Below, piece by piece: positions 20,726-31,882 of a stretch of DNA of 44,368 bases. Below the pieces are notes generated by a model. The model ran no database searches, was not told where the DNA came from, and saw nothing but the letters and a program-made list of their open reading frames with translations. The position numbers were made by a program, and so were the translations under genes. The stretch is from contig SHZS01000008.1 in assembly GCA_009692105.1 (NCBI GenBank), forward strand, positions 1 through 44,368. The letters run 5' to 3'. Positions within the stretch are counted from its first letter, which is position 1, and each line of letters starts with the position of its first letter. The DNA is from Gemmatimonadota bacterium. GTDB taxonomy: Bacteria > Gemmatimonadota > Gemmatimonadetes > Longimicrobiales > Gaopeijiaceae.

Positions 20726-21322
20726 TCAAGCCACGAGGTGCTGATGGACTTGCTGTGCCGCCTCGATCCGGACCTCGAGCGCGAGGCGGTCCCGGGGATC
20801 GTTCTTCACCCGGGACACCCGGACCGGGCGCCCTCCATAAACCGAGCTCGCGGCTTCCTGCACCACTTCGCTCAGGGCCTCGAATCCGGCGTCCGTATTC
20901 GGGGCTCGGAGCCGGTCGTTCGATTCGACCCGAACCAGCGACGCGTCGAATCTGAACTTCCCCTCGATCCGGGGATCCCCTTCGAGGCGCCCGGCCACCA
21001 GAAGCGCGTACCTGAACGTGGAGGCCACGGCCTCCTTCGCGTCTCCCGCCATCCGGACCCGGCGCTGAGCGAGTAGCCCGAACCGCCCGTCCGCCCGGTC
21101 CAAGGCAAAGCTGAGCTCCTGGGCGACCAGCATGATCCCTGGGCTGTCGGGGGTGTGCGCGTAGTCGGCGACATCGAGGAGGATGAGGTCGAGGGCCCGG
21201 TCCCGGATCCACTCGTGGAAGATGGGCACGAAGAGCGACGCGTCGTCCACGATCTCCGGAGAGGCGGAAGCGTAAAGCTTCACGCAGACCCGGTAGAACC
21301 CGGTCAGCTTGTCCTTACTCAC
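20726..21322 (-). CDS. Unknown protein translationally coupled to sulfite reductase
   Basis: The protein is 198 residues from a GTG at 21322 that overlaps the sulfite reductase stop as GTGA. Longer frames upstream fall inside the reductase gene and are rejected. It is soluble and mixed alpha/beta in look, with VPIFHEWIRDRALDLILLDVADYAHTP (broken here after VPIFHEWIRD) and GIMLVAQELSFALDRADGRFG as its more distinctive stretches. It has one cysteine and no recognisable catalytic motif. I do not recognise the family. Position between sulfite reductase and moeZ, with coupling on one side and a seven-base gap on the other, argues for a role in sulfite reduction or sulfur transfer. Confidence 0.85.
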   Translation of the reverse strand: MSKDKLTGFYRVCVKLYASASPEIVDDASLFVPIFHEWIRDRALDLILLDVADYAHTPDSPGIMLVAQELSFALDRADGRFGLLAQRRVRMAGDAKEAVASTFRYALLVAGRLEGDPRIEGKFRFDASLVRVESNDRLRAPNTDAGFEALSEVVQEAASSVYGGRPVRVSRVKNDPRDRLALEVRIEAAQQVHQHLVA

Positions 21323-23634
21323 TTCGTGACTCCCTTCGTGAGCCTCACGGCCGAGCCACTTGCGGCCGCCCGGGCCTCGAGGAGCCGCGTGTAGCACCCG
21401 TGGGCCGCCTCGATGAAGAGCTGGGCCTCCTCCACTCGCCTCCGGGACTCGTCCCCGTCGCGGACCCGCCCGCCCGCCTCGTGCGCACTCTGGAGATAAC
21501 CCCATTCCTTCGCGCCCACGAAGCGCTCGAAGAAGATCTCCGTATCGATGAACTTCGCCTCGAACTCCGGGAAGACGATCAGGGGATCGCCCTTCTGGTC
21601 CGGGTTCTCCACCTTGAGAAGCCCCTGGGCCGCGAAGATCATCGCCTGGTAGGCAAGCCTCCCGGCCTCGTCGAACCGGTTATCGCCCGCCCTGACGTCG
21701 TCCACCAGCACGGAGGCGTCGAACACCTTCGATTCCGCGTTGGCGAGGCTAAACTGCGTGAGAGTCACGACCTCTCCCGCGCACTCGCCCACGCCGATGT
21801 CTCCGATGGAGTACTCACGGGCGTCGTGCCAGTCGATGTAGAAGCTGGGATCCGTCTCGTACGCCGGAACGGCGATCAGATCCTCGAGCTTCCCTTTGAT
21901 CTCCTTCTTCCCGACCCGCATCACCCATCCGCGGAATGTCTCCTCCGGCTGGCGCTCCTTCGTGAAGAGCTCCAGGAGACGATCCACGGCCTCGGGGACA
22001 CGCTTGGACGGCACGGCGCCCATGGCGAGGCCGTAATTCCCCGCGTTCTCCTCGAGTGATCCGCCCAGGAGGAGCTGAAAGTGGGGGACCTTGTACGCAC
22101 CGATGTTACGGCTCGAGCCGTAAAACCCGATGTCCGCGATGTGGTGCATCCCGCAAGAGTTCGGGCACCCGCTCACTTTGACGTGCACGTCCTTCAAGAC
22201 CGGATCCAGGTGGAGGCCCCGATCGTGTAAACGCTCCCTCAGCTCCGCGCCGAGCCCCCGCGCGCTCGCGATCCCTAGCTTGCAGGTGTCGGTGCCAGGG
22301 CACGCCGTCACGTCCGTGATCGATCCAGCTCCCGTGACGACCAGCTTGGCCACGTGCAGGTCGTTGTAGAGCGCGATGAGATCCTGCTCGTGGATCCACC
22401 GGAGGAAGAAGTTCTGGTCCACGTTCGTCCGGAGTGCCCCGGGGGCATAACGGCGCACGAGGTCGGCGAGCGTCCGCGATTGGCGCGAGGTGATGTCGCC
22501 CAGCGGAAGGTTGATCGTCACTCCCACGAAGCCCTTCTGACGCTGGCGATACACGTTCGTCTTCGACCATTCCTCGAATCCGGCCGCAGACTTTGCCGAC
22601 CCGTCCGTGGCGGCCTTCGGAAGCCCCTCGATCTGCGGGAGGTGCGCCTCGTCGAGCCAGGCGTCCCATCGGGGATCCCGCTCCAGAACGGCGAGCTCCT
22701 CGTCCACCAGGCGGTGGAATTCCTCGATCCCGAGCTGAGCCACGAGGAACTTGATCCTCGCCTTATTTCGGTTCCGCTTCTCCCCGAGACGGGCGTACAC
22801 GCGAGCGATCGCCTGGGAGACCGGAAGCATCTGAGACTCGGGCATGAACTCGTAGAGCACCTTGGCGACGTGAGGGACGGGACCGAGCCCTCCCCCCACG
22901 ACCACCGTGAACCCGCGCTCCTCCTTCCCGTCCACCTCTCGGATGGCGGCGATGAACCCCAGGTCGTGCATCATGACGCGGGCGCAGCCTTCGTGCCCAC
23001 ATCCCGAGTAGGCGATCTTGAACTTCCGGCCGAAGTCCTGGACGTCTGGATGTCCGAGGAGAAAATAGGTCTCGGCCTTCGCGTAGGCCGAGATGTCGAA
23101 GCGCTCGTCCGTGCAGATCCCGGCCTTCGGGCAGCCGGTCACGTTCCGCACCGAGTTCCCGCACGCCTCCCGCGTCGTGATCCCGACCGAGGCGAGCCGC
23201 CGGTGCATGTCGGGGGTATCTTCGATGTCCACGTAGTGCAACTGCACGTCCTGGCGCGTCGTGATGTGGAGGACGGCGTTCGAGTACTCCTCCGCACAGT
23301 CCGCAAGCACCTCTAGCTGCTCGGCCGTAACCCGCCCGTACGGGATCTTGATCCGCTGCATCCCGGGGGCATCGAACTCCGTCTCAGGACCCTTGGTGAG
23401 GCCCCGGCGCCGGAAGAGGATCTCCTGCGTCTTCGTGCCGTCGTAGCGCTGGCCGTTGTCGTAGCGCTGCCCGTACGCGCCTCTCCGGAGGCGCAACTCG
23501 GCGAAGACCTTTTCCTCGATCTTGAGCTGCTTTCGGAGCTCCATCTGCGCCTCGAACGAGTCGATCTCCTCCGCCATTGCTGGGGGGATCCGATCGGCGA
23601 GGACCTCCTTCCAACTACGCTGTGCTTGGCTCAT
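21319..23634 (-). CDS. sir: Ferredoxin-type nitrite/sulfite reductase with C-terminal extension
   Basis: The protein is 771 residues from the ATG at 23634; a longer frame to 23784 lies partly in cysH. It has the two-fold NIR_SIR layout: a ferredoxin-like half domain (GMQRIKIPYGRVTAEQLEVL, HITTRQDVQLHYV), a first siroheme domain, a second half domain (NLPLGDITSRQSRTLADL) and the cluster-binding cysteines in CPGTDTC and GCPNSCG that hold the 4Fe-4S/siroheme pair. It reduces sulfite to sulfide with six electrons, or nitrite to ammonia; the cysH neighbour favours sulfite. After about residue 600 there are 150 or more extra residues (ANAESKVFDASVLVDDVRAG, FEAKFIDTEIFFERFVGAKE) that look like a helical HEPN-type domain. 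No flavoprotein subunit is nearby, so ferredoxin is the likely donor. Confidence 0.94.
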   Translation of the reverse strand: MSQAQRSWKEVLADRIPPAMAEEIDSFEAQMELRKQLKIEEKVFAELRLRRGAYGQRYDNGQRYDGTKTQEILFRRRGLTKGPETEFDAPGMQRIKIPYGRVTAEQLEVLADCAEEYSNAVLHITTRQDVQLHYVDIEDTPDMHRRLASVGITTREACGNSVRNVTGCPKAGICTDERFDISAYAKAETYFLLGHPDVQDFGRKFKIAYSGCGHEGCARVMMHDLGFIAAIREVDGKEERGFTVVVGGGLGPVPHVAKVLYEFMPESQMLPVSQAIARVYARLGEKRNRNKARIKFLVAQLGIEEFHRLVDEELAVLERDPRWDAWLDEAHLPQIEGLPKAATDGSAKSAAGFEEWSKTNVYRQRQKGFVGVTINLPLGDITSRQSRTLADLVRRYAPGALRTNVDQNFFLRWIHEQDLIALYNDLHVAKLVVTGAGSITDVTACPGTDTCKLGIASARGLGAELRERLHDRGLHLDPVLKDVHVKVSGCPNSCGMHHIADIGFYGSSRNIGAYKVPHFQLLLGGSLEENAGNYGLAMGAVPSKRVPEAVDRLLELFTKERQPEETFRGWVMRVGKKEIKGKLEDLIAVPAYETDPSFYIDWHDAREYSIGDIGVGECAGEVVTLTQFSLANAESKVFDASVLVDDVRAGDNRFDEAGRLAYQAMIFAAQGLLKVENPDQKGDPLIVFPEFEAKFIDTEIFFERFVGAKEWGYLQSAHEAGGRVRDGDESRRRVEEAQLFIEAAHGCYTRLLEARAAASGSAVRLTKGVTK

Positions 23635-23716
23635 TATCTGCCGTCCCGATCCACGTAGAGATGCAAGACCCGCATCGTAAACTTCGAACCCCACCTCACA
23701 GATTTCGATACCCGGC

Positions 23717-24451
23717 TCATAGCTGATGGAGCCCGCACTCCGTTCGGGTGCTCCCCCGCCACCGGCCGGCCCTCTCGTGCTCACCGGGAAGGGTCGGGGT
23801 GGTCAGGGGCTCGTCCCCGATGCTCGCGTAGCCCTCGTCATGCAGCGGGTGGTAGAGGACCCGGTTCACCATCACGAACTCCCAGACCTGATCGAGCGTC
23901 CAACGCGCGAGGGGGTTCACCTTTGTGCGGCCGCTCTGCTCGACGATCGGAATTCCGGCGCGCGTCAGAGACTGGTCCCTCCGGCGACCGTTGACCCACC
24001 CCTCGAACCCGGTCAAGGCCTCCTTCATCGGCTCCACCTTTGTGAGCTGATGGAAGAGCTCTTCGTCCCGCTCCCAGAGGCGCGGGCCATGCTGAGCCTC
24101 GAACGCCTCCCTCGACGCGGCGGGCTTGAAGACCCGGAGATCCAGTCCATAGTGGCTTCGGACGTGCTCCGCGTGCGCCAGCGTCTCCGGAAAGTGGTAG
24201 AGAGTGTCGACAAAGAGCACCGGAACTCGAATGTCCTCCTCGGCCATCATGTGGATGAGCACCATCCCACTGGGTCCAAAGGTCGAGGATATGGCAACGC
24301 GCCCATCGGGGAAGGCGGCTGTGGCCCAGCGAAGCACCTCTCGAGGATGGGCGGTCTCAAACTGCTGGTTCAGCTCCGCGGCCTCCTCCGGGGTGAGCGG
24401 AGCCGGACCGACCACGGGATCGGCCGCCATGCCATCCGCCGTGATGCCCAT
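23717..24451 (-). CDS. cysH: Phosphoadenylyl-sulfate (PAPS) reductase
   Basis: About 244 residues from the ATG at 24451, which has GGGAG eight bases upstream; longer frames back to 24562 add a low-complexity Gly/Glu stretch. The fold is the adenine nucleotide alpha-hydrolase type (AISSTFGPSGMVLIHM, VLFVDTLYHFPETL, KVEPMKEAL, GRTKVNPLARWT). The catalytic cysteine is the only one, in the C-terminal ECGLH. The two Cys pairs that bind a 4Fe-4S cluster in APS reductases are missing, so it should use PAPS rather than APS. It makes sulfite for the reductase encoded 83 bases downstream. A terminator hairpin lies between its start and the upstream CbiX-type gene. Confidence 0.93.
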   Translation of the reverse strand: MGITADGMAADPVVGPAPLTPEEAAELNQQFETAHPREVLRWATAAFPDGRVAISSTFGPSGMVLIHMMAEEDIRVPVLFVDTLYHFPETLAHAEHVRSHYGLDLRVFKPAASREAFEAQHGPRLWERDEELFHQLTKVEPMKEALTGFEGWVNGRRRDQSLTRAGIPIVEQSGRTKVNPLARWTLDQVWEFVMVNRVLYHPLHDEGYASIGDEPLTTPTLPGEHERAGRWRGSTRTECGLHQL

Positions 24452-24563
24452 CGTCTCGACTCCCGCCTCGGGGATGCCTTCCACCGTCGTCTCCACCTCG
24501 CCGTCTCCACCTCGCCCTTGTCCGCCCTCGGTGTTCACCCTCGGTCGTCGGTGCCGCCACAAA

Positions 24564-24598
24564 CAAAAAACCCCGACCTCTTCTTTGAGAGGTCGGGG
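24564..24598 (-). terminator. Intrinsic terminator between cbiX-type gene and cysH
   Basis: CCCCGACCTC (24571-24580) pairs perfectly with GAGGTCGGGG (24589-24598) around an eight-base loop. Reading the minus strand, six T residues follow at once (24570-24565). This is a strong Rho-independent terminator. It may end transcripts of the CbiX-type gene whose stop is at 24723, or act as an attenuator for cysH, whose start is about 110 bases further on. Confidence 0.85.
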
Positions 24599-24722
24599 CC
24601 GAAGTCCTCAGCGCAATCTAGTGTCTACGCGGAGCGTCTCCCGGACCCACCCCCCAAAGGGAAGGTCTGATAGCAACACATCGCGCAACAGGTAGCAGCG
24701 TTTCGGGTCATGGCCTGGGAGT

Positions 24723-26216
24723 CTAGGCCCGGCCACGGGTCGCGTCAAGTGCGCGTCCGGCAAGATCTAGGGTCTCTTTCGCCCTGCCGAGGAGCACCGA
24801 GCAAGGCTCCGGACAGGGCGTCCGATCGACGTCCGGCCCCTCTCCGTCGTCGTCCTCCCCGACCCCGGCCCAGGTGGGGGTGCGAAGGCAATGTTCGCGG
24901 GCACAGCACACGCCCACCAGCTCCCCTACCTCAGCCGCGGAGATCCTGCCTATCCCCGCGTAGATCCCGCTCTGGCGGGCGGCGACCTGCTCGAAGGGTG
25001 TAACGCTGAGCCGGCCCTGGGCCGCCAGGTAACGGTGGACCGGAGCCGCGGGATACAGGTGCGTGAACACCTCCCACAAGCCCTCCGGGCCGAGGCCGGC
25101 AAACCGCCACCCCGCCACCAGGTCCGGGGCGGTCTTCAGGGGCCGGTGCCCGCCTGTGTTCGAGAGGGCCGCCAATTCCACCGCTTCCTCGAGGTCCCGG
25201 AACTTCCTGAGCTCCGACGGATCCCGATCGCGGTCCGCGAGGTGTCGGACCTCGAACCGTGGCTCGCCGGACGCTGAGCTCTCGCACAACCGCACTGCCG
25301 TCTGGAGGAAGACCCTACCCCCCACGCCCGCTTGGGAGATCCAATCCAGGAATTCGTACCGGGCATTCGTCACATCGGCCGGAGTCGCTCCAGCTCCCTC
25401 CACTACCGGGGGCACGGTCGCGTTCCCCGGGCGTGCTCTCTCCTCGGCTACCAACTCCCGGACCACATCCGTCAAGGCGGGGTGGGTGCCCACGGGCTGC
25501 GCGTACCAGATCGTGGTCGAGCCACGCTCCGTCCTCCCCCCCGAGAGCGCCAGCGCACGCGGCAGAGTCGTCCCCACGTGCCACCCATCCGACATGAAGA
25601 AGGGGACGAGGATCAGATACGAGTCATCGAAGGCGTCCAAGAGCCCCTCCACCCGTGGCTCCTCGTCCAGGAAGGCCGCGATCACCCGTCGGTACCGCCC
25701 TCGGCCTTGGAGCCGCTCTACCAGGGATCGCGTGGTGCCTCCGGATCCTGGGTGCTTCTCGGTTCCATGCCCCACCACTACCAGCGTGGCCCGGGCCTCG
25801 TCCGCCGGATCGAGAGGGGCCACCTCCCTCGCCCGTTCCAACACGAACCCTTCCATCGCTGGGTGTGCTCCCACGGGGCGGCAGTACCGGATCGTCCTTC
25901 CGGCGCGCCGCGTGGTCCGGCCCGTGAGGCCGAGCTCCCTCGGGATGACGCTCTCCGTGAAGTAGCCCGTGCTCGTGAGGCAGGGCACGACGAACACATC
26001 GTGGCTCTCGATCAGGTCCATGGCGGAGTGGAGGTGTGGGTCCTCCTTCCAGAACCCCACCCGGACCTCAGCGAACGCCCGCTCCTTTCGCAGGCGTCTC
26101 GCAAGCTGGTGCACCGGGCGAGCCGAGTCCGGGCTGTGCTGAGAACCGTGCCCGACGAGGAGTAGCGCTGCGGCCGACTCTGGCCTCTCGGATCCCCCGC
26201 CTCGCGTCCTTGACAA
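24723..26216 (-). CDS. Tandem CbiX-type sirohydrochlorin chelatase with DR2241-like Fe-S C-terminus
   Basis: The 497-residue protein starts at a TTG (26216), the only in-frame start before the first motif. Residues 16-120 and 140-250 are two CbiX half-domains, each opening with a VGHG phrase (LLLVGHGSQH, LVVVGHGTEKHP) and each with an HPA loop (VGAHPAMEG, VGTHPALTD). CbiX/SirB proteins insert Fe or Co into sirohydrochlorin. The C-terminal 200 residues carry cysteines in VCCAREHCL and TPCPEPCS, matching a 4Fe-4S domain described for Deinococcus DR2241. With cobA divergent and sulfite reductase downstream, iron insertion to give siroheme is the likely role. No NAD-dependent precorrin-2 dehydrogenase is seen in the window. 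Confidence 0.9.
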   Translation of the reverse strand: MSRTRGGGSERPESAAALLLVGHGSQHSPDSARPVHQLARRLRKERAFAEVRVGFWKEDPHLHSAMDLIESHDVFVVPCLTSTGYFTESVIPRELGLTGRTTRRAGRTIRYCRPVGAHPAMEGFVLERAREVAPLDPADEARATLVVVGHGTEKHPGSGGTTRSLVERLQGRGRYRRVIAAFLDEEPRVEGLLDAFDDSYLILVPFFMSDGWHVGTTLPRALALSGGRTERGSTTIWYAQPVGTHPALTDVVRELVAEERARPGNATVPPVVEGAGATPADVTNARYEFLDWISQAGVGGRVFLQTAVRLCESSASGEPRFEVRHLADRDRDPSELRKFRDLEEAVELAALSNTGGHRPLKTAPDLVAGWRFAGLGPEGLWEVFTHLYPAAPVHRYLAAQGRLSVTPFEQVAARQSGIYAGIGRISAAEVGELVGVCCAREHCLRTPTWAGVGEDDDGEGPDVDRTPCPEPCSVLLGRAKETLDLAGRALDATRGRA

Positions 26217-26476
26217 GGTCGAAACGCCTCCCCCACATACGCTTTGTGCCAGAGGCGCGCCGTTCCGAGGTTCGAGGCGCGCAGCCCGAGAATCACCACG
26301 GTGCCTTCGATCTCAACCTAACGCAGCTCTACCGCGGCGCTGAAGGGATCGGCGGAGGGTGATTTGCGACCAGGACCGGACGAAGCCCCCACCTCTCGAG
26401 AGGCCGGGGCTTTTTTCATTCGAGCAGCGCCTCTCGGGAGGGAGCGGGCTCGCTGGGCATGATGCTAGTTTGACGC
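26217..26476 (+). promoter_or_regulatory. Divergent control region and leader of cobA
   Basis: This 260-base gap separates the minus-strand chelatase gene from plus-strand cobA. It holds a hairpin with GCGCGCC (26255-26261) pairing to GGCGCGC (26276-26282), a GATTTGCGACCAGGAC stretch at 26361-26376, and the terminator at 26385-26416. A TAGTTT box at 26466-26471 sits five bases before the cobA ATG and could be a -10 element for a leaderless transcript. Since no plus-strand gene lies upstream within the gap, the terminator is either an attenuator in a long leader or an insulator. Confidence 0.5.
26385..26416 (+). terminator. Terminator or attenuator upstream of cobA
   Basis: A hairpin with outer pairs GCCCC (26385-26389)/GGGGC (26406-26410), two mismatches, and an inner perfect 12-base palindrome CCTCTCGAGAGG is followed by six T residues (26411-26416). 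It ends 60 bases before the cobA start. It has no upstream plus-strand gene to terminate, which favours attenuation. Confidence 0.8.
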
Positions 26477-27238
26477 ATGGGAACCGTATACCTGGTGGGA
26501 GCCGGCCCGGGCGACCCCGACTTGATCACGCGTAAGGGCGCGAGACTTCTGAAGGTTGCCGGGGCCGTCGTACACGACGCCCTGGTGAGCCCAAAGCTCC
26601 TGGACGAGGTGAGCGTCGGCGCCGAGCTCCACGACGTGGGCAGGCGGGCTGGCACGAAGCGCCTCGAGCAATCCCAGGTGAACGAGCTTTTGATCGAACT
26701 GGCCGCCTCGCACGAGGTGGTGGTTCGCTTGAAGGGGGGAGATCCGTTCGTGTTCGGGCGGGGCGGCGAGGAGGCCATCGCCCTGAAGGCGGCCGGAGTC
26801 TCCTTCGAAGTGGTGCCGGGGGTGACCTCGGGGGTGGCGGTCCCTGCGTACGCCGGCATCCCCCTCACTCACCGAGGAATCGCCTCGTCGGTGACCTTCC
26901 TGACCGGACACCAGGTCACCTCCCCCATCGCGGCGGGTTCAGAGCGTACTGCATGGCTCATCGGTGACGGGACCATCGTCGTGTTCATGGGACTCCTTCG
27001 GGTCGACGCGATCGCCCGAGGCCTCGTCGAACGCGGGCTCTCTCCCGAGACCCCCGCCGCCCTGATCGAGTCCGGGACCTACCCATCTCAGAGAACCGTG
27101 ACAGGTACGCTCGCCGACATCGGCGACCGCCTCCGCGGGATCGAGGTCTCGGGGCCGGCGCTCATCGTGGTGGGAGAGGTGGTGGCACTTCGAGACCGGA
27201 TCCGCTGGTTCCAGGAGGAAGGCGGAAGACCGGGATGA
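26477..27238 (+). CDS. cobA: Uroporphyrinogen-III C-methyltransferase (SUMT)
   Basis: The 253-residue protein is a stand-alone SUMT, methylating uroporphyrinogen III twice with SAM to give precorrin-2, the entry to siroheme and cobalamin. Motifs: VYLVGAGPGDPDLITRKG (residues 4-21), VVHDALVSPKLL, VRLKGGDPFVFGRGGEE and VVPGVTSGVAVPAYAGIPLTH, split here for length as VVPGVTSG and AYAGIPLTHRG. It lacks the CysG dehydrogenase/chelatase half; the chelatase is the divergent CbiX-type gene. Its stop overlaps the ATG of a truncated ABC ATPase as ATGA, an odd partner for this function. No good ribosome site precedes the ATG; a TAGTTT box lies just upstream. Confidence 0.95.
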   Translation: MGTVYLVGAGPGDPDLITRKGARLLKVAGAVVHDALVSPKLLDEVSVGAELHDVGRRAGTKRLEQSQVNELLIELAASHEVVVRLKGGDPFVFGRGGEEAIALKAAGVSFEVVPGVTSGVAVPAYAGIPLTHRGIASSVTFLTGHQVTSPIAAGSERTAWLIGDGTIVVFMGLLRVDAIARGLVERGLSPETPAALIESGTYPSQRTVTGTLADIGDRLRGIEVSGPALIVVGEVVALRDRIRWFQEEGGRPG

Positions 27239-27447
27239 CGAGCCACGAGGCGGTGATCGCGGTGAAAGGCCTCACCAAGCGATTCGGGACGATCGAGGCC
27301 CTGTGCGGCATCGATCTTGAGGTGCGGCCGGGGGAGATCTTCGGCTTCCTCGGCCCGAACGGGGCCGGGAAGTCGACCACGATCGGTATCCTGTGTACCC
27401 TCCTTCGTGCGACCTCCGGCAGCGCGACGGTGGCGGGCCTGGCGTGA
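27235..27447 (+). pseudogene. ABC-2 exporter ATPase, N-terminal fragment
   Basis: Seventy residues match the start of a drug-type ABC ATPase: IAVKGLTKRFGTIEALCGID, then Walker A GFLGPNGAGKSTT and TLLRATSGSATVAG. The frame stops there, so the Q-loop, signature, Walker B and about 240 residues are missing. The TGA overlaps a GTG that continues directly into the interior of an ABC-2 permease. The simplest reading is one deletion of about 0.9 kb removing the rest of the ATPase and the beginning of the permease. Alone the fragment cannot bind or hydrolyse ATP productively. Confidence 0.85.
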
Positions 27448-28085
27448 GCTACGCGCAGTTCATCTTCCCGGGGATCATGGGAATGGCGGTGCTCTTCAGC
27501 TCGATCTTCGGAGCCATGAGCATCGTATGGGACCGGGAGTTCGGGTTACTGAAGGAGGTGCTGGCCGCTCCGATCGACCGCTCGACCGTCGCCGTGGGGA
27601 AGGCGCTGGGAGGCACTTCCCAGGCGATGATCCAGGGGCTGGTACTCCTGCTCCTGGCGCCCGTCGTTGGCGTCCGGCTCTCGCTCCTCTCGATCGTGGA
27701 GCTGATCCCGATCACCTTCGCGCTGGCGTTCGCCCTCTCTTCGATGGGCGTGGCCATCGCATCCAGGATGCGCTCGATGCAGGGCTTTCAGGTCGTGACG
27801 AATCTGATCATGATGCCCATGTTCTTCCTGTCCGGAGCACTCTTTCCGCTTCGGGGCCTTCCGGGCTGGATGATGGTCCTGACCCGGCTGGATCCGGCAA
27901 GCTATGGGATGGATCCGCTTCGGCGGGTCGCGCTGGCCGGACTCCTCCCCGCGGAAGTGCGAGGGAGCCTGGGCCTCACAGTGTTCGGGAGGGTACTTCC
28001 GATCGGGGTCGAGCTCGCCGTCTTGCTCAGCTTCGGGCTCGTCATGCTGGGGATCGCAATCCGGAACTTCCGGATCCGCGACTGA
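27444..28085 (+). pseudogene. ABC-2 type permease lacking its N-terminus
   Basis: The frame from a GTG at 27444 gives 213 residues that begin in the middle of an ABC-2 permease (SYAQFIFPGIMGMAVLF, IVWDREFGLLKEVLAAPIDR) and continue normally through LFPLRGLPGWMMVLTRLDPASYGMD, split here, to the end NFRIRD. Typical members have about 60 further residues at the N-terminus including the first membrane helix. Five membrane segments remain. A GTGA overlap with the ATPase fragment would allow translation, but the product probably is not functional. An assembly collapse is an alternative. Confidence 0.8.
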
Positions 28086-28488: not shown

Positions 28489-28944
28489 CTACCCGATCGG
28501 AAGCTCTCGCGGCGACTCCGGAGCCCCGGGGTCCCATCCCCACGCTCGCAGGGCGGCATCTCCATCCGCCCCGCCCACCCCCACGATCAGCCAGAGCACT
28601 TCGGGCCAGAACTCCATGTACCCGCGGTCCACGGACGAGGGGACCGGCTGGCCCGCCGGATGGGAGTGATAGAAGCCCACAATCCCTTCCCCCGACCCCC
28701 GGAGCGCACGCTCTTCTTCAATCACCCTGCGGGGATCGATCGTGAACCTGGTGCTCCTCCGGTCAGCGGGCGCCTCGTTCGTGCAAGGAACCGCGCGCAG
28801 GACCCGAACCCTCGCCTCCTCGACCCGACCCACAAGGAGCCCGCATGCCTCGTCGGGCGACGCGTCCCTCGCGTCCTCGATGACGGCGTTCCGCGCGTTG
28901 GTCGAGAGGAAGGCCCGTCGGATCCCTCCCTCTCCATCACTCAC
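28489..28944 (-). CDS. JAMM (M67) metallopeptidase, Mec/QbsD-like
   Basis: The protein is 151 residues from a GTG at 28944 that overlaps the stop of the MoaD-like gene as GTGA. It has the JAMM zinc pattern: Glu in [10 protein letters not shown], then [16 protein letters not shown] (H-x-H-P with Ser and Asp following). Bacterial members next to ubiquitin-like carriers cleave after the Gly-Gly, as Mec does on CysO-cysteine and QbsD does on QbsE. Here the carrier ends in Gly-Gly plus five residues, so this enzyme could expose the Gly-Gly, release an amino acid, or both. The start is fixed by the overlap; an upstream start at 28959 is less likely. Confidence 0.9.
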
Positions 28945-29231
28945 CCGGCCGTCCCCCACCCTCCCGCGATGGAGGGCACGATGGACACCTCGTCGCCTCC
29001 CTTCACCGGCGTCTCCAACTCCTTCTCGTATCGGATGTCCGTGCCGTTCACGAACACGTTCAGAAACTGCCGGACCTGCCCATCGTCGCCCATGATCCGG
29101 CCGAGCAGCTGCGGGTGTGCGTTCTTCAGGTCCGCAAATAGCTCCCTCACGGTGGTCCCTTCCGCACTCAGCTCCGACAGCCCGCTCGTGAGCTTCCTTA
29201 GGGCGCTGGGAACCCGAACCGTCACGCTCAT
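28941..29231 (-). CDS. MoaD/ThiS-family sulfur carrier with a five-residue tail after Gly-Gly
   Basis: The 96-residue protein has a beta-grasp fold: SVTVRVPSALRKLT, TTVRELFADLKNAHPQL, FLNVFVNGTDIRY and GGDEVSIVPSIAGG. The Gly-Gly at 90-91, normally the very C-terminus, is followed by WGTAG. Carriers of this kind (CysO, HcyS, QbsE) are adenylated, thiocarboxylated and used as sulfur donors; several are made with a masked end that a JAMM peptidase removes. The JAMM gene directly downstream fits. It lies 76 bases after thrC on the same strand. MoaD itself (molybdopterin) is an alternative, but no MoaE or other moa gene is present. Confidence 0.9.
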   Translation of the reverse strand: MSVTVRVPSALRKLTSGLSELSAEGTTVRELFADLKNAHPQLLGRIMGDDGQVRQFLNVFVNGTDIRYEKELETPVKGGDEVSIVPSIAGGWGTAG

Positions 29232-29307
29232 CCTATCGCCTCCTCACGCTGCGCGAGCTCAGCGGGGCTCCGTCCGGGTCCCCCGAAACGCCGCGAATCC
29301 ATCGTAC

Positions 29308-30579
29308 CTACGCCGCCCCATTTCCCACCAAGCGCTCCACCTCGGAAAGCCTCGGCTGGATCGGGTCCTCCAACCGGAAGGTGGAGCGGGCGGCCTCCGG
29401 GGTCTTGAGCCCATTCCCGGTGATGCACAGCACCGTCGGCCCCCCTGGTGCGAGCCGCCCATCCAGCGCAAGCCGCGCGGCCGCGGAAACCGTAACGCCT
29501 CCGGCGGTCTCCGTGAAGACGCCCTCGAGGGTGGCTAGGGTCCCGATCCCGCGCACGATGTCCTCGTCCGACACCGCCTCCCCCCACCCCCCTGTCTCTC
29601 GCATCGTCTCCAGCGCGAATAACCCATCCGCCGGGTTCCCGATCGCGAGGGAACGGGCGATGGTGTCGGGCTTCTGGACCGGTCGCACCTGCCGCTCCCC
29701 CCTTTGCAACGCGCTCACGATTGGCGAGCAACCGGCCGCCTGCGCCCCAAAGATCCGGGGCTCGGGGCCCTCGTCCACCAACCCGACCTTCGTCAGCTCC
29801 CAAAAACTCTTCCGAAGTTTCGTGATGAGGGAGCCTCCCGCCATCGGAACCACCACGTTCGCTGGAAGGGTCCACCCGAGCTGCTCAGCGATCTCGAACC
29901 CCATCGACTTCGAGCCCTCGCTGTAGTAAGCGCGCAGGTTGACGTTAACGATTCCCCAACCGAATCGGTCGGCGACCTCCGCGCAAAGGCGATTCACGTC
30001 GTCGTAGACACCCTTCACCCGGATCACCCGGGCGCCGTGCACGCCGGTAGCCACGATCTTCTCGGGCTCCAGATCCTCCGGTATGAAGATCCAGGCCTGG
30101 AGCCCCGCGGTCGCCGCTTGGGCAGCGACTGCATTCGCGAGGTTCCCGGTGGAGGCGCACCCCACGACCTTGATCCCGAGCTCGCCGGCCCGCTGCAGCG
30201 CTACTGCGACGACTCGATCCTTGAAGGATTGGGTGGGGTGGTTGGACGAGTCCGCCTTGATCCAGAGATCTTGAATCCCGATGGCCTTCCCAAGGCGGGG
30301 GGCGCGAAGGAGGGGCGTGCACCCCACACCCAGCCCGCGAGTTGGCTCCTCCGCCACCGGCAGGAGCTCCCGGTACCTCCACATGTCCGAGGGGCGGGAG
30401 GCGATCTTCTCTCGCGTCAGCTTCCCGCGCAGCCCCTCCGTGTCGTATATGACTTCGAGGGGGCCGAAGCACTCCTCGCAGACGTGATACGGCCCGCTCT
30501 CGGTCTCGGTCCCGCACATGCGACATCGCAGCATGTCGAGCGCCGCCGACTGGCCGAGCAACGTCTTGGTCGTGTTCAT
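29308..30579 (-). CDS. thrC: Threonine synthase with N-terminal zinc ribbon
   Basis: The 423-residue PLP enzyme converts O-phosphohomoserine to threonine. Cys19, 22, 34 and 37 (CRMCG, CEECF) form a small zinc ribbon, as in many ThrC of the long actinobacterial/archaeal type. The PLP lysine is Lys120 in PTQSFKDR; CASTGNLANAVAAQAA and the C-terminal LCITGNGLKTPE complete the fold. It heads a thrC-carrier-JAMM-ferredoxin run on the minus strand. Phosphohomoserine is also a precursor of methionine, so the sulfur carrier beside it could act on the same branch; that is inference. The upstream 367 bases hold a possible leader. Confidence 0.95.
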   Translation of the reverse strand: MNTTKTLLGQSAALDMLRCRMCGTETESGPYHVCEECFGPLEVIYDTEGLRGKLTREKIASRPSDMWRYRELLPVAEEPTRGLGVGCTPLLRAPRLGKAIGIQDLWIKADSSNHPTQSFKDRVVAVALQRAGELGIKVVGCASTGNLANAVAAQAATAGLQAWIFIPEDLEPEKIVATGVHGARVIRVKGVYDDVNRLCAEVADRFGWGIVNVNLRAYYSEGSKSMGFEIAEQLGWTLPANVVVPMAGGSLITKLRKSFWELTKVGLVDEGPEPRIFGAQAAGCSPIVSALQRGERQVRPVQKPDTIARSLAIGNPADGLFALETMRETGGWGEAVSDEDIVRGIGTLATLEGVFTETAGGVTVSAAARLALDGRLAPGGPTVLCITGNGLKTPEAARSTFRLEDPIQPRLSEVERLVGNGAA

Positions 30580-30694
30580 CTCCTCGATCGTCTCCCTTGC
30601 GACGTGCCCCCGTGGAGACGCCTCGCCTGTTTCCCTGCCGGTCGGGCGAAAGATCGCCAGAAACGGCGATCGGGCAACCCGCCTGCGTAGGGTC

Positions 30695-30737
30695 CAAAAG
30701 AACGAGCCCCGGCCTCCGTGGAAGGTGGCTGGGGCTC
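30695..30737 (-). terminator. Possible attenuator hairpin upstream of thrC
   Basis: GAGCCCC (minus strand, 30737-30731) pairs with GGGGCTC (30710-30704), a 7-bp stem with a partly paired 20-base loop. It is followed by GTTCTTTTGG. The T-run is only four long, so termination would be weak. Confidence 0.45.
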
Positions 30738-30760
30738 ACGCACTCCGTCGAGTCCGCTTT

Positions 30761-30859
30761 CTAGCTCCGAGAGCCTCCGGACACGACCGTACCCATTCCG
30801 CCCCCCTCCAAGGAGGGAGCCGACATCGAATAGCGGCACATGTAGTTGCTAGAAGCCAT
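30761..30859 (-). CDS. Possible 32-residue leader peptide upstream of thrC
   Basis: The ORF starts at an ATG (30859) and encodes a Ser/Gly-rich peptide starting MASSNYMCRYSMSAPSLEGG and ending SGGSRS. It has seven Ser and eight Gly residues but only one Thr and no Ile, so a classical threonine/isoleucine attenuator is not indicated. No strong ribosome site is seen; a second ATG (seventh codon) is possible. It is given because of its place before a terminator-like hairpin. Confidence 0.3.
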   Translation of the reverse strand: MASSNYMCRYSMSAPSLEGGGMGTVVSGGSRS

Positions 30860-30910
30860 GCTTGGAAGGCTACGGAGGGGAGGTTGGGACGTCAAGGTGG
30901 CGTCCGCCCG

Positions 30911-30939
30911 TTGACCTCGATCTGACCCGCGCCTAGTGT
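30911..30939 (+). promoter_or_regulatory. Candidate promoter for a leaderless dehydrogenase transcript
   Basis: TTGACC (30911-30916) and TAGTGT (30934-30939) are separated by 17 bases. The predicted start point falls at or next to the ATG at 30947, and there is little room for a ribosome site, so the mRNA may be leaderless. Confidence 0.45.
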
Positions 30940-30946
30940 CGGAGCC

Positions 30947-31882
30947 ATGAACCAGCCGCTCCCGTCCATCGGCTTCCTCGGCCTCGGGATCATGGGCCAT
31001 GAAATGGCCCGGAACCTCCTCAAGGCCGGCTTCCCGCTCCTCGTCTGGAACCGCACGGCCGGCAAGACAGCAGCCCTCGCCGCCGAGGGGGCGCGCGTCG
31101 GCACGGGGCCGGCCGACGTGGCCCAGCGCTCGGACGTCGTGATCGTGTGCGTGAGCGACACTCCCGACGTGGAAGAGATCGTGCTGGGGCCAGGAGGGGT
31201 GCTCGCTGGCGCACGCCCCGGAAGCCTGGTCGTGGACATGAGCACGATCAGCCCCGCCAGGACCCGGGAGATCGCGAGGCGCCTGGAGGAGCGGGGCGTT
31301 CACATGCTGGACGCCCCGGTGAGCGGGGGGAGCGAGGGTGCGACGCGAGGAACGCTGAGCATCATGGTCGGCGGGGATGCCACGCAGGTCGAGCGAGCCA
31401 TGCCGGCCTTCCGCGCCATGGGGAAGACGATCACGCATGTGGGACCCGCCGGCGCAGGTCAGACGGTCAAGCTCGTGAACCAGATCGTGGCCGTGGTGAA
31501 CATGCTGGCCATGGCCGAGGGCCTCCTCTTCGCGGAGGCTTCGGGAGTCGATCTCGACAAGGTGCTCGAGGCCATCACGGGGGGCGCGGCCGGGAGCTGG
31601 ATGCTCGCCAACCGAGGGCCGCAGGTGGTGGCGCGGGACTGGCGCCCCGGCTTCATGATCGACCTGCAACAGAAAGACCTTCGCCTCGCGCTCGAGGTCG
31701 CGGACGAGATGGGCGTTCCGCTCATCGGAGCGGGGTTGGTGTTCCAGCTGTACCGCACGCTTCAGCACGCAGGGTTCGGACGCGAGGGAAATCAGGCCCT
31801 CGCGAAGGCGCTCGAGCGTCTGGCGGGAATCGAGATTGGGACCGGCGGCGTCAGCGGGGGGGGAGTAGTAGGGGCGACGTAG
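30947..31882 (+). CDS. NAD(P)-dependent beta-hydroxyacid dehydrogenase (HIBADH/GLYR family)
   Basis: The 311-residue protein has an N-terminal Rossmann domain with GFLGLGIMGHEMARNL (residues 9-24), LVWNRTAGK, the substrate-binding DAPVSGGSEGATRGTLSIMVGG (about 118-139; the GG pair marks the family) and the catalytic lysine in GQTVKLVNQ. Members oxidise 3-hydroxyisobutyrate or reduce glyoxylate, succinic semialdehyde or tartronate semialdehyde; the exact substrate cannot be told. It is cytoplasmic and monocistronic. Its last 32 bases overlap the convergent M28-PDZ gene. Confidence 0.92.
   Translation: MNQPLPSIGFLGLGIMGHEMARNLLKAGFPLLVWNRTAGKTAALAAEGARVGTGPADVAQRSDVVIVCVSDTPDVEEIVLGPGGVLAGARPGSLVVDMSTISPARTREIARRLEERGVHMLDAPVSGGSEGATRGTLSIMVGGDATQVERAMPAFRAMGKTITHVGPAGAGQTVKLVNQIVAVVNMLAMAEGLLFAEASGVDLDKVLEAITGGAAGSWMLANRGPQVVARDWRPGFMIDLQQKDLRLALEVADEMGVPLIGAGLVFQLYRTLQHAGFGREGNQALAKALERLAGIEIGTGGVSGGGVVGAT

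Follow-up and report, generated by a model that had tools for sequence, protein, structure and literature searches.

The classical attenuators of amino-acid operons (trp, his, ilv) combine a leader peptide with mutually exclusive antiterminator and terminator structures. The loci described here would share this layout, but with Cys codons as the control codons and with sulfate reduction and siroheme synthesis genes as the regulated genes. In mycobacteria, polycysteine leaderless short ORFs reportedly serve as attenuators, as Canestrari et al. are said to have described in 2020. Here too, short Cys-rich ORFs precede cysteine or sulfur genes, and in the window a -10 box is found at a distance of 7-8 nt ahead of both leader ATGs, which makes them leaderless; unlike the mycobacterial ORFs, each leader ORF is followed by a strong intrinsic terminator. 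Cys-rich leader ORFs were predicted earlier in Actinobacteria, in a study that describes the mycobacterial cases as lacking conserved terminators and suspects Rho (PMC1262725). The polycysteine case of M. smegmatis is termed translational in a further report (PMC13236596). In Rhodobacterales, the uORFC-8-2 motif before cysS consists of a tandem-Cys uORF followed by an intrinsic terminator, for which ribosome-mediated attenuation was proposed (PMC8632094). The order of a Cys-codon uORF and an intrinsic terminator is the same as here, while the phylum, the genes (cysH and SUMT), the number of Cys codons (up to eight) and the absence of an Rfam match in the window are different. A literature search combining Gemmatimonadota with leader peptide or transcription attenuation, which covered few subscription papers, returned no published report of a Cys attenuator in this phylum.

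The window, i.e., the whole stretch of 44,368 nucleotides that was analyzed, holds a sulfur gene cluster. SUMT (cobA in the initial annotation) is located on the plus strand; a CbiX-type chelatase, cysH and a sulfite/nitrite reductase gene lie on the minus strand, as do genes for a ThrC-like PLP enzyme, a ThiS/SAMP-like protein and a JAB protein. The chelatase carries two CbiX matches. The comparison below starts from what can be seen directly in this DNA and in that of relatives, namely terminators, leader ORFs, promoters, antiterminator complementarity and their distribution (Table 1).

Table 1. Features of the SUMT, cysH and ThrC-like loci (window coordinates).
Feature	Coordinates	Strand	Remarks
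cysH (PAPS/APS reductase)	23717..24562	-	followed by sulfite/nitrite reductase gene 21319-23784
Intrinsic terminator of the cysH attenuator	24565..24600	-	hairpin and T-run
Cys leader ORF, MTRNAATCCAMCCYQTFPLGGGSGRRSA then stop	24625..24711	-	leaderless; conserved across genera
Promoter TTGACG-N17-TAGACT	24720..24748	-	8 nt before the leader ATG
Divergent CbiX-type chelatase, TTG start	24723..26216	-	Pfam; DR2241/Fer4_23 C-terminal domains
38-aa GTG ORF, VPEARRSEVRGAQPENHHGAFDLNLTQLYRGAEGIGGG then stop	26246..26362	+	spacing of true leaders, no control codons
Second hairpin of the initial annotation	26255..26282	+	7 bp, 14-nt loop, -15.4
Intrinsic terminator upstream of SUMT	26383..26416	+	stem-loop 26383-26412, T-run 26411-26416; 60 nt upstream of the SUMT start
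TAGTTT, candidate -10 box for leaderless transcription	26466..26471	+	no -35, unconserved
SUMT (uroporphyrinogen-III C-methyltransferase), 253 aa	26477..27238	+	no Shine-Dalgarno; start fixed by in-frame stop
Terminator before the ThrC-like gene 29308-30579	30703..30738	-	follows the leader ORF 30761-30859
Met/Cys-containing leader ORF, MASSNYMCRYSMSAPSLEGGGMGTVVSGGSRS then stop	30761..30859	-	leaderless
Promoter TTGACG-N17-TAGCCT	30867..30895	-	7 nt from the ATG of the Met/Cys leader

The predicted cysH attenuator in the window and its family

A complete predicted attenuator lies between cbiX and cysH (24748-24565, minus strand), 1.7 kb from the SUMT site, with its parts in the order promoter, leaderless Cys ORF, antiterminator segment and terminator. 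When the frames are read by eye, a poly-Cys leader with a terminator is present at all 14 cysH loci of the family with upstream DNA (15 rows, of which G023 was dropped for having only 14 nt upstream at a contig end). An automatic test that requires a terminator together with either three Cys in 12 codons (strict) or two in four (loose) recovers 12/14 and 13/14 of these loci, respectively. The strict test is passed by one of 214 genes (cysH itself) in a 285-kb genome sample, which comprises the window and 14 other stretches of the window's own genome (G000, a 1.6-Mb assembly in which the window is contig C30) and in which gene starts were set by a GC-frame heuristic rather than a gene finder. 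None of 85 other SUMT genes and none of 11 ThrC paralogues pass, and among cysH genes outside the family one of the 20 rows examined (15 + 5, from a longer match list) is positive, namely G240. A scan of the complete G000 genome for the bare poly-Cys DNA pattern gives two matches (the cysH leader and one site on contig C49), against six for the reversed control. The stop codon lies 53-67 nt from the T-run in 15 of 17 leaders.

Five of the cysH leaders can be aligned. The terminator pairs are kept in 58/60 cells and the competing antiterminator pairs (GGUC-GGG with CCC-GACC) in 35/35, so both mutually exclusive pairings are retained. Covariation in this five-sequence alignment is no stronger than in shuffles (202/500 and 500/500 equally good); since the pairs hardly vary, it speaks neither for nor against the pairings. 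Judged by energy alone, the antiterminator of the window's cysH is not significant (P 0.335), as is the case for most single antiterminators. The arrangement suggests that sulfate assimilation in the family is under the control of leader-peptide attenuation, with the Cys-rich leader peptide of the relatives and of the window's cysH probably sensing the cysteine supply.

Variants of the layout occur elsewhere. In G143 (L211), a second Cys-rich ORF (MTQQTGLCWCCCTVTPREGRVPTSR then stop) with its own terminator is found nearer to cysH than the far Cys leader, possibly as two attenuators in series. In G240 (L241), which lies outside the window's family, a Cys-rich ORF (TCATTVCCKACCMCARS) and a terminator precede cysH.

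A second leader before the ThrC-like operon

The minus-strand region 28489-30895 contains a ThrC-like/ThiS-SAMP-like/JAB operon behind a promoter, a Met/Cys leader and a terminator. Met-rich leaders precede the ThrC-like gene in G115 (with ISMCGCSMMASSLEE), G023 (with ASMCDCSMMTPTREE) and G101 (starting MRAAMMCMALMVAPP), and a poorer one, starting MTAASRMREAG, in G032; the ThrC-like homologues of G001, G016 and G019 have no terminator in front. Going by its leader, this would be an operon for homocysteine/methionine and not for threonine.

The promoter pattern TTGAC-N16-18-TANNNT has 10 sites in the 285 kb, three of which lie within the window. The leaderless gene at 30947 has the strong form, TTGAC-N17-TAGNNT (30911-30949, plus strand), with 7 nt separating it from the start codon.

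The terminator upstream of SUMT

The initial annotation had noted a strong hairpin with six T residues 60 bases before the SUMT gene and no plus-strand gene between it and the divergent chelatase. Both statements hold. Segment 26375-26420 folds with a dG of -21.9 (z -3.44; 1/200 shuffles equally good) and the wider segment 26366-26416 with -20.7 (z -2.06), which identifies the hairpin as a genuine intrinsic terminator. It is the sole match of a generic terminator scan of 25900-26800 (1 versus 0.4 expected), and clean hairpins with at least five T occur only twice in the 285-kb sample, at SUMT and at cysH. Neither the ORF list nor Pfam, which assigns the chelatase to CbiX, gives a plus-strand gene in the interval.

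The second hairpin claimed ahead of the terminator can form, but its stability does not exceed that of shuffles (z -0.89, 31/200 equally good) and is ordinary at the local GC content. The folding of 26246-26380 as a whole is likewise no better than that of shuffles (z 0.25). No frame of the SUMT leader contains a run of Cys or Met codons, and hence there is no leader ORF with the Cys-codon run of a Cys attenuator. The best score for a family-type promoter, the only type scanned for, is 4.4, at the level of the shuffled mean (4.5), and the best antiterminator (-12.9 kcal/mol, P 0.45) is at chance level. Rfam covariance models produced no relevant match under gathering and E-value thresholds, the best weak one being a human lncRNA (E 4.2), so that neither a riboswitch nor another known Rfam leader is recognized. 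From the stop of the 38-aa GTG ORF to where the first five T end, the distance is 53 nt, as in true leaders; the ORF may be a relic or due to chance.

We compared the eight closest family homologues of SUMT (the window's included) with 85 others in the class, i.e., 93 of 95 rows after dropping one of the two rows each for G310 and G296. For the 85 others, any terminator within 450 nt was counted, and some of them have short upstream stretches at contig ends. A terminator precedes SUMT in six of the eight (G000, G115, G016, G140, G141 and G028) versus 8/85 others (Fisher P 9e-5). It is missing in G023, which has a terminator-like stretch without T-run (P 0.095), and in G030. In G115 and G016, the terminator is conserved in position as well as in sequence (local scores of 40 and 48 versus shuffled maxima of 28 and 25), while the leader upstream of it shows no conservation with either (P 0.32 and about 0.89). 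A search of 58 genomes (relatives, own included) with the intergenic DNA gave short chance-level matches apart from the terminator in G016, and a plasmid search gave none.

Four of the eight closest homologues, all from sister genera, do have a Cys-codon leader ORF with a terminator directly before SUMT: G016 (SRMCCMCSTCCCPLCLGEAGEG), G140 (REACLCCGLPSPMGEGDRAAR), G028 (RKACLCCGLPSSPGEGCRSGG) and G141 (RKPCPCPGLPSSSGEEFPAGR), the last with fewer Cys than the others. In these four, the distance from the stop codon to the T-run is 54-62 nt. Directly behind its Cys codons, G016 has a segment complementary to the terminator on its 5' side, the 5' arm (-27.0 kcal/mol, P 0.005), a putative antiterminator in textbook layout; the best antiterminators of G140 (P 0.655), G141 (P 0.29) and G028 (P 0.475) are no better than chance. 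A scan for Cys ORFs in all SUMT upstream regions irrespective of a terminator was noisy (27 sense versus 10 antisense), and a terminator was therefore required. The SUMT match of G030 (L022, C9:21602-22348) has one in-frame TAG.

Origin of the SUMT terminator

With a probability of roughly 0.5, we favor the reading that the SUMT hairpin is what remains of a Cys attenuator: the terminator survived, while the lineage of the window lost or replaced the peptide sensor. The hairpin would be the part that ends transcription in a ribosome-mediated (leader-peptide) attenuator, a type that the family appears to use in sulfate assimilation. Where all parts are present, as before cysH in the window and before SUMT in sister genera, a short ORF with many Cys codons would be translated just behind RNA polymerase. 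If Cys-tRNA is short, the ribosome would stall on the Cys codons, and the G-rich segment behind them would engage the terminator by pairing with its 5' arm, letting transcription continue. If cysteine is ample, the ribosome would reach the stop codon, the terminator would form and transcription would end. At all loci, it is the cysteine signal and the switch that we infer. With the sensor gone and the terminator kept, SUMT in the window would be expressed by partial read-through and/or from a start downstream of the terminator.

The proposal of the initial annotation that a cis-acting leader regulates SUMT is thus upheld in part: the terminator, the SUMT leaders of the sister genera and the cysH attenuator argue for it, whereas the sensing half was not found. 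For the window's SUMT, the attenuator reading is only half-supported, because the terminator alone is conserved, and Cys codons, a family-type promoter and an above-chance antiterminator were not found. As a counter-reading, GC-rich terminators before SUMT could also have been gained independently. On the reading favored here, Gemmatimonadota would join the bacteria with Cys-codon attenuation by intrinsic terminators, the siroheme gene SUMT would join the genes under such control, and the attenuator would be seen at different stages of gain or loss across related genomes. Such short leaders are testable and would reveal the amino acid to which a given sulfur operon responds.

Alternatively, the terminator may act as an insulator that blocks stray plus-strand transcription, with SUMT transcription starting at or next to the ATG and TAGTTT as the -10 box. 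We regard this as unlikely, though worth weighing. The ATG at 26477 is fixed as the start because of the in-frame stop TGA at 26471-26473, and it lacks a Shine-Dalgarno sequence, which fits a leaderless transcript. A leaderless gene with a full promoter exists at 30911-30947, and TANNNT 11-13 nt before the ATG is enriched in the window's genome (7/182 genes versus 6/1069 internal ATGs, P 0.001). The TAGTTT box that had been pointed out before the ATG is indeed present, but no -35-like sequence is found 16-18 nt before it, it lies 5 nt from the ATG where the observed distances peak at 7, and it is absent at that place in G115, G023 and G030. In G115, an AGGAG between terminator and ATG is better suited to a leadered transcript. 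Moreover, an insulator with a leaderless start gives no reason for several genera to have retained this terminator before SUMT.

It is rather improbable that the attenuator is intact and that the RNA of 26246-26380 senses something else, which could be a protein, a tetrapyrrole ligand or, by way of the 38-aa ORF, another amino acid. In favor of this, G000 and G115 share the terminator although their leaders have otherwise diverged, the stop of the 38-aa ORF is as far from the terminator as in true leaders, and a TTGACA at 26210 is at promoter distance from the GTG of this ORF. Yet, the segment has no Rfam match, no structure beyond that of shuffles and no leader sequence conserved with G115. 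The TTGACA was rejected as a weak candidate for a leader promoter because the start codon region of cbiX gives this sequence as its reverse complement, so that coding conservation would explain it, and because it lacks a -10 (CCACAT matches 2/6).

Even less credence is given to a scheme in which separate leader-peptide sensors cover the whole sulfate-to-cysteine/methionine cluster, i.e., Cys for cysH and Met plus Cys for the ThrC-like/SAMP-like/JAB operon, and in which the sensor of SUMT was exchanged for a new kind (e.g., a tetrapyrrole- or protein-sensing RNA). If it were true, the Met-type leader would imply that the ThrC-like operon makes homocysteine/methionine via a protein thiocarboxylate and not threonine. 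Finally, a terminator without a plus-strand gene ahead could mark the 3' end of a short transcript (a small RNA, or an antisense RNA to the cbiX 5' region), but this is very improbable given that no Rfam RNA, family-type promoter or conserved sequence is found ahead of it, and that the terminator nonetheless recurs before SUMT downstream of unrelated sequence.

The terminator palindrome CCTCTCGAGAGG (26392-26403) has a near copy, CCTCTCGGGAGG (26430-26441), located 38 bp downstream. No further match occurs in the 285-kb sample, and the RNAs of the two are able to pair; they may represent an operator pair, a duplicated hairpin or a structure formed after read-through. Right after SUMT, an ABC-2 membrane protein is encoded (27393-28085, plus strand), whose Pfam profile is matched only from position 50, the N-terminal part apparently being missing.
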